From Haloglomus litoreum (GTDB lineage Archaea > Halobacteriota > Halobacteria > Halobacteriales > Haloarculaceae): DNA of 64,000 bases. Location of the stretch: positions 1,054,001 to 1,118,000 of the forward strand of contig NZ_CP119988.1 in assembly GCF_029338515.1 (NCBI RefSeq), read 5' to 3'. The notes under the pieces were generated by a model. The model saw nothing but the letters and a program-made list of their open reading frames with translations. It did no database searches and was not told the DNA's origin. The position numbers and the translations under genes are program-made. Positions 13,100-18,594 of the stretch are shown here, piece by piece (positions within the stretch are counted from its first letter, which is position 1; the number at the start of each line of letters is the position of its first letter).

Positions 13100-13783
13100 G
13101 TGCTGTCGGTCGAGTTCCACTCCCACTCGTCGCTCTCGTACGACGGGCGCGACCCGGTCGAACTCCTGCTGGGGCAGGCCGAGGCCGTCGGCCTGGACGC
13201 GCTCGCCGTGACCGACCACGACGAGATCGACGCCTCGCTCCGGGCGGCGGACCTCGCCCCCGAGTACGACCTCGTCGGTATCCCCGGGATGGAGATCACC
13301 TCCGAGGCCGGCCACGTCCTCGGTCTCGGCATCGAGGAGGCCGTCCCGCCGGGCCTCTCGTACGACGAGACGCTCGACCGCATCCACGACCAGGGCGGTA
13401 TCGCGGTCGTGCCACACCCGTTCCAGAAGTCCCGCCACGGCGTCGCCGCGCACATCACTCGCGGCCAGCTCGCCAGCGCCGACGCCATCGAGGTGTACAA
13501 CTCCCGGCTCCTGACCGGCCGGTCGAACCGCCGGGCCGAGCGGTTCGCCCGCGATCACGACCTCCCGATGACCGCGGGGAGCGACGCCCACATCAGCGAG
13601 ATGGTCGGACAGGCCGTCACCGAGGTCGACACCAGCCACGAGGACGTCTCGAGCATCCTGGACGCGGTCCGTGAGGGCCGGACGACCGTCGTCGGGAAGC
13701 GTACTCCGTGGCGCGTGAGCGTCCGCCAGTTCGGTGGCGGCATCCTCCGCCGGGCCAGACAGACCGTGCTGGCGCCGTTCTGA
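13100..13783 (+). CDS. PHP-domain metal-dependent hydrolase
   Basis: A 227-residue PHP-domain protein. The first metal motif is [11 protein letters not shown] (residues 6-16), followed by [27 protein letters not shown] and a C-terminal GSDAHISEM; these supply the His/Asp/Glu ligands of the trinuclear centre. The family covers phosphoesterases such as histidinol phosphatase and nucleotide phosphodiesterases; the substrate is unknown. No ATG fits the frame, so the GTG at 13100, just before the first strand, was chosen. The stop codon overlaps the next start (TGATG), so the asparagine-synthase-like gene is probably translationally coupled. Confidence 0.87.
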
Positions 13784-14928
13784 TGGCTCCCGACCGGCCG
13801 CCGATGCAGGGGACCGACACCGACCTCGTCGAGCGGGCGCTCCGCGACGGCGAGCCGCTCCCGGGGACGGGGGGCTTCGCCGGGCAGCTGGCCGACGGCC
13901 GCGCCGTCCGGGACGTGCTGGGCCGGTATCCGCTGTTCACCGAGCGCGACGCGCCCGGGACCGCGAGCGCCGACCCGTCCGACCTCGACCGGCCGGTCCG
14001 GCTCCCGGCGGGGACGGTCCGTTCGGGCGACGGGGACCGGCGGGTCTGGTCGCTGCCGGAGCCCCCGACGTTCGACCATGACCGACGAGCCGTCGCCGCG
14101 GTCCGCGAGGCCGTCACCGGGTCCGTCGCCGCGGTCGCGGGCGAGGACGTGGCGGTCGCGTTCTCCGGCGGCGTCGACTCCGCGGCCGTCGCCGCCGGCC
14201 TTCCGGACGCGCCGCTGTACGTCGCCGGCTTCCCCGACAGTCCCGATATCGCGGCCGCCCGGGAGGCGGCCCGACTCTGCGACCGCGAGGAGGACCTCAC
14301 CGTTGTCGAACTCGACCACGCGGCCGTCCGCGACCTCTCGGCGACGGTCGCGCGTGCGACCGGGCGCACGAACGCGATGGATGTCGCTATCGCCGTGCCG
14401 CTGGTGGCGGTCGCGCGTCGCGCACGTGGGGACGGGTACCAGCGGCTGGCCGTCGGGCAGGGTGCCGACGAGCTGTTCGGTGGTTACGACAAGGTGGCCC
14501 GGGCGCCCGGGGACCCGCGGGTCGACGCCGACACCGTCCGGGGTGCGACCCGCGAACTCCTCGCTGGCCTGCCCGACCAGCTCGAACGGGACGTGCTCGC
14601 GCTCCGGGCGGCCGGCGTCGAGCCCGTCGCGCCGCTGCTCCACGACCGGGTGGTACGGGCCGCGTTGCGGCTACCGGGTGACCTGCTGGTGGACGAGCGT
14701 GGTGAGCGGAAGGTGGCGTTCCGACGGGCCGCCCGCGAGTCCGTCCCCGACCGTGTGGCCTTCCGGGGCAAGCGGGCGGCCCAGTACGGGAGTCGGGCGG
14801 CCCGCGAACTGGATCGGCTGGCCCGGGAGGCCGGGTTCGAGCGGTCCGGCGGCGACCACGTGGCGCAGTTCGTCGCCGACCTCGCCGGTGACGTGCCGGC
14901 CATCGCGTGTCCCGCCAGGTCGGAGTAA
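13783..14928 (+). CDS. asparagine-synthase-like protein without a working glutaminase domain
   Basis: A 381-residue protein with the synthetase (PP-loop) half of AsnB: SGGVDS at residues 128-133, AVGQGADELFGGY near 226-238, and a C-terminal HDRVVRAALRLPGDLL / PDRVAFRGKRAAQYGS segment. The first 100 residues resemble only the tail of a class II glutaminase domain (RDVLGRYPLF), and there is no N-terminal catalytic Cys, so glutamine cannot be the direct nitrogen donor. It may use free ammonia, or adenylate another acid as in beta-lactam synthetase relatives. The start overlaps the stop of the PHP gene by one base. Confidence 0.85.
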   Translation: MAPDRPPMQGTDTDLVERALRDGEPLPGTGGFAGQLADGRAVRDVLGRYPLFTERDAPGTASADPSDLDRPVRLPAGTVRSGDGDRRVWSLPEPPTFDHDRRAVAAVREAVTGSVAAVAGEDVAVAFSGGVDSAAVAAGLPDAPLYVAGFPDSPDIAAAREAARLCDREEDLTVVELDHAAVRDLSATVARATGRTNAMDVAIAVPLVAVARRARGDGYQRLAVGQGADELFGGYDKVARAPGDPRVDADTVRGATRELLAGLPDQLERDVLALRAAGVEPVAPLLHDRVVRAALRLPGDLLVDERGERKVAFRRAARESVPDRVAFRGKRAAQYGSRAARELDRLAREAGFERSGGDHVAQFVADLAGDVPAIACPARSE

Positions 14929-15252
14929 CCCGCCGCGGGCGCGCCGGCGCCCCGATGTCAGCCGTCCGTTCGACGGGTGGCAGACGAGCGTCGGTCGGGG
15001 GTCATCCCGAGGGCCGGTGACCGGGATATATGCTTTCCGGCCGAATCCGGGGGATACGGGCCATGTGAAGCGGTGTCAGGACTCGCGTTTGACCAGAAAG
15101 CATTTATTATACCCGCGGCTTGTTCGCATCGTACCCCTACCCATGGTGACAGCACGGAGTACCCCGCTCGGGTCTGTGCACGAGGCGCTCTGCGCCGGCG
15201 TGCCCCGGGTGTCGGTGGAAACTGTTGTTGCCGCTTGCGAGCAATATCAAAC
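14929..15252 (+). promoter_or_regulatory. S-layer gene promoter region and leader
   Basis: Two TATA-like boxes precede the S-layer gene: GGATATATG at 15024-15032 and TTTATTATA at 15103-15111. The second is followed by a likely start site near 15134, which would give a leader of about 120 bases. That is unusual here, because most genes in this window look leaderless. S-layer genes of other haloarchaea are also known to have leaders and strong promoters. The leader contains a complete small ORF (15143-15256). Confidence 0.65.
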
Positions 15253-15256
15253 ATGA
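15143..15256 (+). CDS. putative 37-codon leader ORF overlapping the S-layer start
   Basis: An ATG about ten bases after the expected transcription start opens a frame of 37 codons (begins MVTARSTPLG, ends ACEQYQT) whose TGA overlaps the S-layer ATG as ATGA. It has no recognisable domain. If translated, it would couple S-layer translation to the leader; it may also be a chance frame in GC-rich DNA. Confidence 0.35.
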   Translation: MVTARSTPLGSVHEALCAGVPRVSVETVVAACEQYQT

Positions 15257-18200
15257 CAGGAACATACGACAAACTCCGCGGCGTTACCCTCGCCGTACTG
15301 ATGGTGTTGTCCGTCTTCGCGGGCACCGTGGCCTTCGCGGGCACGGCGGCCGCAGCGAGCAACGCCCAGTTCGACACCGAGGGCACCATCGGCAACGGAT
15401 CCGACAACGCGCCCGCGGGCAGCGTTTCCGGACTGACCTCCGGTGTAGGCGTAGACAACAACCAGAACATCCAGCAGATTCGGATCAGCTTCAGCGCAGG
15501 AAGCTTCGACGGGAGCTTCAACGACGTCCCGGACGACGACGTCAACATCCGAGTCTACCCGAACCAGGCTGCATACGAGTCCGGTAACACGGCTCTGGCC
15601 ACCACCACGTTCAACAACGACGCGACGGTGGAGTCAACGCAGGACAACGGGGAGACGATCACCGTTCAGACCTCGAGCTCGTTCAGCCTGAGCCCGGGTC
15701 AGTACGTCGAAGTCGACATCGAGGATAACTTCCTCAACCCGTCCTCCGGCGGCGACTACGAGGGTGACATCATCCTCCAGCCGCAGTCCGACGCGAACAC
15801 CGCCACCGGGACCCTCTCGGTCCCGGCGACCGGTGACGACGACGACGACGATGAGGTCGAGGAGCCTGACAACTTCTGGGACGACCGCGCGACGCGGTTC
15901 CAGGGTCAGCAGCTCGACTTCAACCCCAACGGCGCGACCAACGCCGACTACCAGCTGTACGAGTGCGACTACGACGCCACGACGGAAACCTGTGAGGGCG
16001 ACCTCGTCCAGGACCTTCCGGACGATGGTCCCTTCGAGATCGACACGACGGACCTGCAGGGTGACTACGTCATCGCCATCAACGGCGGCGAGACGTACAT
16101 CATCACCAACGAAACCGGCTTCCGTAGTGGTACCCAGAACGCCGCTGACGGCCCCACCGACCCGTCGACGTCCATCGTGACGCAGACGCTCGACGCGTCC
16201 TTCGACGACGACCGAATCTCTCAGGGTTCGAGTAGCACCCTGAGCGTCAAGTCGCCGAAGCGGGGCAACTACCAGCTCGTCATTGGTGCCGACGGTCTCA
16301 GCCAGGGCGAACTGGACGACCTCTTCGACAACTCAGGCACGATCTCTGGTGATGACGAGAACGTCACTGTCCAGGTGGATAGCACGGACGACAACATCGA
16401 CGTGAGCGTCCCCAGCTCGTTCGACACGGGCGAGTACGACTTCCAGTTCAACGTCCGTGACACCACGGCGTCCGACACGGACAGCGTGGAGATCGTCACC
16501 GAGGCCGACACCACGGCCACGTTCGAGCAGAACTCCTACGTGGAGGATCGTGGTGACGAGGTGACCATCTCGCTCGAACTCTCGAACACCGAATCGACCA
16601 CCGTCCGTATCGGTTCGGACGAGGTCAACTACGTCTCGAACGTCCGCGTCCGCGACTCCGACGACGACGGGGACGTCTCGTTCACGATGAACACCTTCCG
16701 CGCGGGCCAGGCGTCCTTCTCGGAGAGCAGCGCGTTCAGCTCCGAGGACGACACCGTCTCCTTCGCGCGGCGCCAGACCGACGGGCTCGAGAGCCCGCTC
16801 GAGGCGACCGACTACGACCTGACGGCACTGGTCGACAACAACGAGGTCGACGTCGCAGTCCTCGACCTCCGCGAGCGCAGCCAGAGCGGCATCTCGATCT
16901 ACACGGCACCGAGCCGCCTCTCGAGCACCGCTGACGCTGGCTCCGCCTACAGTGACGCCAACGACGTCCGTGACGCGGCGACGCAGCGGCGCGTCATCGC
17001 GGACGGGAACCACTTCATCCTCCAGATCAACGCGAGCGGTCTGGGTGGCTACGTCGAGGACATCGACGACTTCGAGGACACGAAGGACGGCGAGGACGCG
17101 ACGCAGAACGTCGCGCTCTACCTCGAGGACGCGGAGGCCGGGCCGAACGCCGACGCCCCGAACTTCACCATCGCCAACGGTGAGGTCTACCCCGACGGTG
17201 ACAACGACACCTACTACGTCGTCTTCGACCCCGACAGCTACGGTGACGACTTCGAGGACGGTGAGCGCTACCGGCTGACGTTCACGGTTCCCGAGTCGAA
17301 CCCGTACATCGGCAACGACAACGCCAACCGTGACGAGTCCGTCTCGTTCAACAAGACGTTCCGTCTCGACGAGCGTGAGGCGACCTTCGACACCGGCGAC
17401 AACAGCGTCGTGACGGTCGAGGCCGCCTCCGGCGAGACGATCAGCGGCACGACCAACGTCGCGCCGGGTACGGAGTTCGACATCCGCGCCAAGGCGACCG
17501 GCCAGGGCGCGTTCCTCCTGACCCAGCCGACCGAGGTTGCGAAGAACGGGAGCTTCAGCGCCGAGTTCGACTTCTCCAACGTCTCGGAGAACACGAGCTT
17601 CACGCTGACCATCCCGAGCCAGAACTTCGAGGACAACGCCGAGACGCCCGCGCGTGTCGGCGCTGCAGAGACCGCATCCGCCACGTTCAACAACCAGACC
17701 TTCACGGGTCAGGCGACGAGCGTGGAGGTCGAGCAGGTCACCACCTCCGACGGTGGCTTCGTGACGATCCACGACTCGACGCTCGTCAGTGACGGTGCCG
17801 TCTTCGACTCGGTCCGGGGTACGTCCGCGTACCTCGCGCCGGGTACGCAGACCAACGTCACGGTCGAGCTCGACTCGCCGATCGCCCCGAGCGGCTCGGG
17901 TACCTACTACGCGATGCCGCACCTGGACTCCGACGGTGACCAGACCTACGACTTCGTCACGTCCGAGGGCGCCGACGACGGCCCCTACACGACGAACGAG
18001 GGCAACGCGGTCGTCGACCCCGCGACCATCACGGTCGAGCGGGTCGCCACGGTCACCTTCAACGACCAGCAGCAGATGGGCGACACCGTGCTCGTCGAGA
18101 GCGTGCGCCTGCCCAACGGTGGCTTCGTGACGATCCACGACAGCACGGTCGCCGACGATCCGTTCGGCTCCGTGCGTGGCACGTCCAACTACCTCGAGTC

Positions 18201-18594
18201 CGGCACCAGCGCTGACATCAACATCACGCTGGACGAGCCGGCCTCCGAGAGTGGGCAGTTCTTCGCCATGCCGCACCGTGACACCGACGGCGACGAGACG
18301 TACGACTTCGTCTCGTCCAACGGTGACGACGACGGTCCGTACCTGAACGCGGACGGTCAGATCGTCCTGGACGCGGCCCAGATCCAGGTCGGTGGCATGG
18401 ACACGCCGACGGACACGCCGACGGAAACGGACGAGCCGGACACGCCGACGGAAACGGACGAGCCGGACACGCCGACGGAGACCGACGAGCCCGAGACGAC
18501 GACCACGAGCGGCGGACAGCCCGGCTTCGGCCTGGCCGTCTCGCTGATCGCACTCGTCGGCGCGGCGCTCATCGCGCTCCGCCGTCGCGACTAA
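15253..18594 (+). CDS. csg: S-layer glycoprotein / BGTF-type surface glycoprotein
   Basis: Major cell-wall-type protein of 1113 residues. Residues 1-34 form a Sec signal (KLRGVTLAVLMVLSVFAGTV, cut near AAAA/SNAQ). The mature part is very acidic, with many N-glycosylation sequons and the surface-domain motif RATRFQGQQLDF at about 213-224. Two similar C-terminal units (about 815-930 and 930-1045), each with GGFVTIHDST and a YAMPH or FAMPH motif, match the DUF7282-like repeats of haloarchaeal surface proteins. A Thr/Pro/Glu-rich linker with three PTETDEPDT-like repeats leads to the PGF-CTERM sorting signal (PGFG near residue 1090, hydrophobic helix, RRRD). Archaeosortase would cleave and lipid-anchor it. 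The N-terminus differs from Haloferax Csg, so an S-layer paralogue is possible. Confidence 0.85.
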   Translation: MTGTYDKLRGVTLAVLMVLSVFAGTVAFAGTAAAASNAQFDTEGTIGNGSDNAPAGSVSGLTSGVGVDNNQNIQQIRISFSAGSFDGSFNDVPDDDVNIRVYPNQAAYESGNTALATTTFNNDATVESTQDNGETITVQTSSSFSLSPGQYVEVDIEDNFLNPSSGGDYEGDIILQPQSDANTATGTLSVPATGDDDDDDEVEEPDNFWDDRATRFQGQQLDFNPNGATNADYQLYECDYDATTETCEGDLVQDLPDDGPFEIDTTDLQGDYVIAINGGETYIITNETGFRSGTQNAADGPTDPSTSIVTQTLDASFDDDRISQGSSSTLSVKSPKRGNYQLVIGADGLSQGELDDLFDNSGTISGDDENVTVQVDSTDDNIDVSVPSSFDTGEYDFQFNVRDTTASDTDSVEIVTEADTTATFEQNSYVEDRGDEVTISLELSNTESTTVRIGSDEVNYVSNVRVRDSDDDGDVSFTMNTFRAGQASFSESSAFSSEDDTVSFARRQTDGLESPLEATDYDLTALVDNNEVDVAVLDLRERSQSGISIYTAPSRLSSTADAGSAYSDANDVRDAATQRRVIADGNHFILQINASGLGGYVEDIDDFEDTKDGEDATQNVALYLEDAEAGPNADAPNFTIANGEVYPDGDNDTYYVVFDPDSYGDDFEDGERYRLTFTVPESNPYIGNDNANRDESVSFNKTFRLDEREATFDTGDNSVVTVEAASGETISGTTNVAPGTEFDIRAKATGQGAFLLTQPTEVAKNGSFSAEFDFSNVSENTSFTLTIPSQNFEDNAETPARVGAAETASATFNNQTFTGQATSVEVEQVTTSDGGFVTIHDSTLVSDGAVFDSVRGTSAYLAPGTQTNVTVELDSPIAPSGSGTYYAMPHLDSDGDQTYDFVTSEGADDGPYTTNEGNAVVDPATITVERVATVTFNDQQQMGDTVLVESVRLPNGGFVTIHDSTVADDPFGSVRGTSNYLESGTSADINITLDEPASESGQFFAMPHRDTDGDETYDFVSSNGDDDGPYLNADGQIVLDAAQIQVGGMDTPTDTPTETDEPDTPTETDEPDTPTETDEPETTTTSGGQPGFGLAVSLIALVGAALIALRRRD

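Follow-up and report, generated by a model that had tools for sequence, protein, structure and literature searches.

Upstream of the S-layer glycoprotein gene of Haloglomus litoreum lies a leader that is one copy of a 5′ RNA element conserved among the S-layer genes of haloarchaea. The leader occupies positions 15131–15252 of the window, i.e. the 64,000-nt stretch of DNA that was analysed. Comparison of the homologous leaders makes it a well supported candidate for a structured RNA associated with S-layer genes. A small upstream open reading frame (uORF) is embedded in it, and the comparison supports the view that the frame and the end of this uORF are under selection. The original prediction, which singled out the uORF as a possible control of translation or mRNA stability, is partly supported, and it missed the main feature, a structured RNA that is conserved and whose 5′ end is invariant. 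The leader is found in many genera, is absent from Rfam and stands before a coat-protein gene; with its uORF, it looks like a control device for the outer coat.

The S-layer locus and the spread of the leader

The S-layer glycoprotein gene (15253–18594, + strand, as are all leader features given below) has a halo_sig_pep signal, DUF7827, DUF7282 and PGF-CTERM. The TIGR04207 surface-glycoprotein signal scores 37.4 bits (cut-off 24.6) and PGF-CTERM 32.1 (cut-off 24.5), NF041335 is matched in part, and the nearest relatives within the genus show 58, 56 and 44% identity. The AUG of the gene has no obvious Shine-Dalgarno sequence.

A TATA-like box had been proposed at 15103–15111 for the S-layer promoter, and this is confirmed. 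The box reads TTTATTATA, and its first T lies at –28, i.e. 28 nt 5′ of the equivalent of G15131, where the conserved leader starts, in 114 of 159 homologous leaders. Because the spacing between the TATA box and the first conserved base is fixed over the leaders, transcription probably starts at 15131–15134. The spacing would also place the element in the transcribed leader, with its first base no more than about 3 nt from the predicted transcription start. The surface-glycoprotein mRNA of Halobacterium reportedly has a leader of about 111 nt.

Directly 5′ of the promoter is a gene for an asparagine-synthase-like ATP-domain protein (13708–14928), the N-terminal glutaminase part of which is unmatched. 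Elsewhere in genome G000 (contig C1, 1950651–1953296; L007, L012), a 982-aa frame has several matches to the C-terminal part of the S-layer protein (DUF7282, PGF-CTERM), and is perhaps a repeat surface protein.

A 31-mer of the leader matches 39 of 146 genomes of the family, and a 22-mer from its 5′ end matches 141 of 391 Halobacteria genomes, which represent 41 of 86 genera. A control with the pattern reversed has no match. When the genome_contigs collection (84,980 species) was scanned for exact copies, 39 named matches were obtained, all from Halobacteria by record title, and none was found in the viral contigs scanned. Nearly all unique copies (159 of 161) sit 85–193 nt 5′ of a surface-glycoprotein start of the type MT...K.R...LMV.SVFAGT. 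Omission of L081, whose motif is near a contig end, and of L111, where the start was not called, leaves the 159 leaders used below. The 39 named copies all precede MT...-type surface proteins, 35 by pattern and four more by a separate check.

Covariance models extend this picture. Model R1, which scores the window leader at 80.6 bits, detects copies in 25 of 67 genomes, the majority of which were picked from genera or groups that lacked a pattern match, three of the 25 (G000, G093 and G147) already having had one. There are 27 R1 matches: 25 lie before an MT...-type gene, one (L283) lies before a gene with an MK start judged similar by eye, and one (L287) is a weak false match within a coding region. 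Model R2 rests on 102 matches from 100 loci, two of the matches being weak extras (19.8 and 16.7 bits). Of 156 genomes from the phylum it matches 21, each of them from Halobacteria, and it shows no match in nine further listed Halobacteria nor in 11 listed other genomes; the remaining 115 non-matching genomes are unlisted and belong outside the class judging by list order. All 15 further R2 loci adjoin the same kind of downstream gene. Across these sets the gene that follows is consistently of one kind, as in a structured leader.

In several genomes there are two or three S-layer-type genes, and a separate leader element stands before each (G063, contig C1, 343424–350273, with L071, L163 and L164; also G406, G260, G114, G012 and G156), and therefore the element goes with S-layer paralogues. 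Several near-complete Halobacteria genomes (G146, G151, G154, G163, G164, G172 and others) have no model match, which could reflect loss, divergence or a different S-layer.

Secondary structure of the leader RNA

The 5′ end of the leader is a near-invariant tail, GTACCCCTACCCAT (15131–15144), at or beside the predicted transcription start. In the element-wide form of the tail, GUACCCCUACCCAU, positions C4–C7, T8, C10, C11, A13 and G15 are invariant among 84 aligned leaders. The 13-nt core of the tail has no second exact copy in the rest of its own genome, where one copy with one mismatch is present. Pairing of the tail with 16S rRNA was considered and rejected: the best Watson-Crick run is 8, which is equalled or beaten by 52 of 200 shuffled tails.

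Next to the tail is the 5′ strand of a helix, P1 (GGTGACAGCA, 15145–15154). It pairs at 10 of 10 positions, wobbles included, with the 3′ strand (TGTTGTTGCC, 15223–15232), and the consensus is GGUGNCAGYA paired with UGCUGUYGCC. Covariation was assessed on a plain MAFFT alignment of 84 leaders. The non-redundant set also numbers 84 leaders (similarity ≤0.86, length up to 150 nt), and alignment A1 contains 83 of these together with the window leader, L224 having been dropped for its mis-called start. Eight of the ten P1 pairs show changes on both sides, and there are 47 double-change cells vs 14.1 in shuffles. None of 500 shuffles reaches any of the measures, and slid-pairing controls score far below the true pairing. 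P1 is a helix with compensatory changes, such as is looked for in a structured leader. RNAalifold recovers six of its pairs unaided, and it is present in the unconstrained fold of 65 of the 84 leaders.

The covariation bears on the question of whether conservation is at the DNA level, where an initiator or a site for a regulator would lie at the transcription start. An invariant tail at a fixed distance from the TATA box would fit such a site, but the two P1 strands, separated by about 80 nt in the predicted leader, change in a compensatory manner, which indicates RNA. A DNA-level explanation of the element is highly improbable, although it may still hold for the 14-nt tail alone.

P1 is closed over an internal loop with an AGUA strand (15158–15161) and a GAA strand (15218–15220). 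Of the 159 leaders, 140 have AGTA at the loop position, where shuffles would give 2.7; 128 have GAA immediately before the 3′ strand of P1, compared with 12.6 by shuffling; and 120 have both. AGUA opposite GAA is the consensus of the bulged-G (sarcin-ricin, loop E) module, and the two strands, situated between two predicted helices, fit this module at the sequence level.

The apical hairpin, P2 (15162–15217), is variable in both sequence and length. It can be delimited in 56 leaders, and in 51 of these its folding energy is lower than that of shuffles (mean z –1.5); the folding energy of the window leader itself is modestly low (z –1.77). A linker (15233–15252), with an A-rich consensus in relatives, connects P1 to the S-layer start, and the distance from the end of P1 to the start codon is usually 17–28 nt over the leaders. 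A search of window positions 14929–15400 against Rfam 15 (E up to 10) gave no family match to the leader; the sole match is a chance one to mir-132 at 15315–15359, with 13.4 bits vs a gathering score of 52.

The small upstream reading frame

The uORF (15143–15256) opens with the ATG at 15143–15145 and has 37 codons, the ATG counted. Its TGA (15254–15256) overlaps the S-layer ATG (15253–15255) as ATGA, exactly as originally described. A single overlap of this type is unremarkable, and a chance ORF in an ordinary leader would be one way to account for it, as an overlapping ORF is expected in about one-fifth of such leaders. Comparison of the relatives points the other way: conservation extends over many genera, which is beyond chance. 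The chance explanation is refuted for the RNA element, and the probability left to it is close to nil.

Conservation of the overlap in close relatives had been proposed as a check. Three of four leaders in the genus of the window have it, whereas the fourth has a stop 8 nt before the S-layer ATG. On a wider scale the predicted leader with a coupled ORF holds up in part. The frame and the ATGA overlap are kept above expectation over 42 genera, but the overlap is seen in only 18.8 of the 42 (weighted), and the ATG is absent in 18 of 159 leaders. These 18 carry AGG, ACG or AAG at +13, where the other 141 have ATG; GTG is present at +16 in 16 of them, and two have neither ATG nor GTG. The overlapping stop and start of a translationally coupled ATGA pair is found in the window and in 63 of 159 leaders. 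The frame that gives ATGA is present in 56 of the 84 non-redundant leaders (genus mean 0.647 over 42 genera; bootstrap 0.533–0.757). By this comparison the uORF is less constant than the RNA element, because some leaders have lost its start codon and not all have the overlap.

A frame-shift null was used to evaluate the uORF ends, whereby each genus is shifted by 0–2 nt, counts are genus-weighted over the 42 genera, and related genera are treated as independent. The ATGA overlap is enriched over a null of 8.4 genera (0 of 2000 as extreme), and a run past the S-layer start is depleted, 6.3 vs 17.3 (0 of 2000). Stops near the S-layer start (≤24 nt before it) are enriched, 11.8 vs 6.9 (fraction 0.003), and far stops are depleted (fraction 0.0045). 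Within the P2 region there are three stops in the uORF frame vs 20 and 32 in the other frames (p 0.002–0.003, with frame labels redrawn per genus). Among 33 divergent leaders no start was found in six. The other 27 divide into 10 with overlap, six with near stops, one that runs past and 10 with far stops (null 4.3, 3.3, 7.0 and 12.3); the tail start in these was found by a crude rule that misplaced it in several rows, which were retained. Stop counts over the whole leader do not favour the uORF frame over frame +2 (91 vs 92), the per-frame stop test on the 84 non-redundant leaders is not significant (p 0.05, 0.43 and 0.22), and nearest-neighbour length differences are divisible by three in only 48 of 128 cases.

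Perhaps the leader functions as a structured RNA only, i.e. as an mRNA stabiliser or a ribosome-recruiting or protein-binding element, and the ORF is a by-product of the AUGG in the tail, at most barred from running past the S-layer start. That the element is more widespread than the ORF is consistent with this, as are the unconserved uORF peptide and the replacement of the start codon by AGG, ACG or AAG in several genera. But far stops, which would be harmless to a leader of this kind, are depleted (5.1 genera vs 9.4 in the null), ATGA overlaps and near stops are enriched, and internal stops are depleted in the uORF frame. An RNA-only function is thus a possible explanation, if an unlikely one. 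The depletion of far stops argues for coupling, beyond mere avoidance of an overlap with the S-layer gene.

A function of the uORF peptide as such was considered and rejected. The peptide has no Pfam or NCBIfam match. Substitutions at codon positions 1, 2 and 3 number 286, 387 and 376 in one count (90 pairs) and 300, 408 and 374 in a count over the variable part (99 pairs); there is no third-position excess of the sort displayed by a conserved small protein. In addition, the uORF peptides are on average basic (+0.086 per residue), opposite to the acidic S-layer protein (–0.150), and no peptide conservation is found beyond the RNA blocks.

An attenuation-like process, in which the position of the ribosome on the uORF chooses between alternative leader folds, is improbable. 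The uORF does cross P1 and P2, and a pairing of GUAC at 1–4 with GUAC at 30–33 would cross P1. This alternative pairing is 89.5% paired, with 104 of 500 shuffles as high, and double changes occur at three pairs (0 of 500 shuffles); the covariation that might point to it is weak. No conserved codon run is seen among the peptides listed. We know of no attenuation by a leader peptide in haloarchaea, and this also counts against the process.

Possible mode of action and relation to known systems

The reading that we favour, with moderate confidence, is that of a structured cis-acting leader with an embedded uORF that would be translated and coupled by termination–reinitiation to S-layer translation. 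The leader of 120 nt would have its invariant tail single-stranded, P1 closed over the AGUA/GAA loop, then the variable P2 and the A-rich linker. The uORF would open where the tail meets P1, with AUG at +13 or GUG at +16, cross the structure and end at the S-layer AUG or shortly ahead of it. Ribosomes entering from the 5′ end could translate the uORF, whereby P1 and P2 are opened, and termination at the UGA could then be followed by reinitiation on the S-layer AUG. How often reinitiation occurs might be set by the fold, perhaps together with a protein bound to the bulged-G loop or to the tail, and the fold might also shield the 5′ terminus of this highly abundant mRNA. Comparison shows the element, its P1 pairing, the tie to surface-glycoprotein genes and the kept frame; that the uORF is translated and coupled, that a protein binds, and that stability or regulation is affected, is inferred.

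The haloarchaeal leader shares with leader-peptide attenuators and uORF-controlled leaders a structured RNA that carries a short ORF ahead of the main gene, and differs from them in that no conserved peptide or codon run is seen. ATGA-type overlapping gene pairs are another related system; the abstract of PMC6728339 describes translational coupling in 13 of 14 cases tested, in Haloferax and E. coli. The leader resembles these pairs in the haloarchaeal ATGA overlap and in having no obvious Shine-Dalgarno sequence, but here the upstream partner is a 37-codon ORF with an unconserved peptide, within a structured leader. As to initiation on 5′-UTRs in Haloferax, an excerpt of PMC3986360 describes Shine-Dalgarno sites as unused and 5′-end scanning as excluded earlier, and therefore the AUG at +13 need not be the default start. 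Leaderless mRNAs constitute 72% of Haloferax protein-coding transcripts, as given in part of PMC4983044.

Archaeal r-leaders are similar in that they are conserved structured 5′ leaders; in an excerpt of PMC7247131, the eL15 r-leader is compared with the rRNA bulged-G module, which is often tied to protein binding. Such modules suggest that a protein may likewise bind the bulged-G loop of the haloarchaeal leader. The present element differs from the r-leaders in that it precedes an S-layer gene, and not a ribosomal-protein operon, and has an embedded uORF. The SLH motif, a bacterial riboswitch candidate 5′ of genes for S-layer-homology proteins (PMC6429828, in part), is comparable as a structured RNA and in gene context; according to the same excerpt it occurs in Synergistaceae, Firmicutes and metagenomes, unlike the haloarchaeal element. 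No description of the leader was found in literature searches of the open-access PMC subset, nor in the excerpts of PMC3119063, PMC6523106, PMC8303175, PMC12542753 and PMC12482152. A structured leader with a coupled uORF is a known kind of element, and the combination and the setting found here appear to be new.

It is tempting to consider the element as a class-wide haloarchaeal RNA switch, in which traffic on a frame-constrained but sequence-free uORF, together with a protein bound either to the bulged-G loop or to the invariant CCCCUACCC tail, would meter S-layer synthesis, e.g. in a feedback loop with secretion or assembly of the coat. This is offered tentatively, as a rather doubtful generalization. 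The leader also offers an entry to the question of how archaea make one secreted protein in very large amounts without Shine-Dalgarno sites, and it is a possible part for expression vectors.

In leaders L243–L248 (genus g44), L239, L242 and L249 the RNA element is kept, but AGG replaces the ATG of the uORF and the next codon is GTG. These AGG-for-ATG leaders represent a natural test of the need for the start codon.
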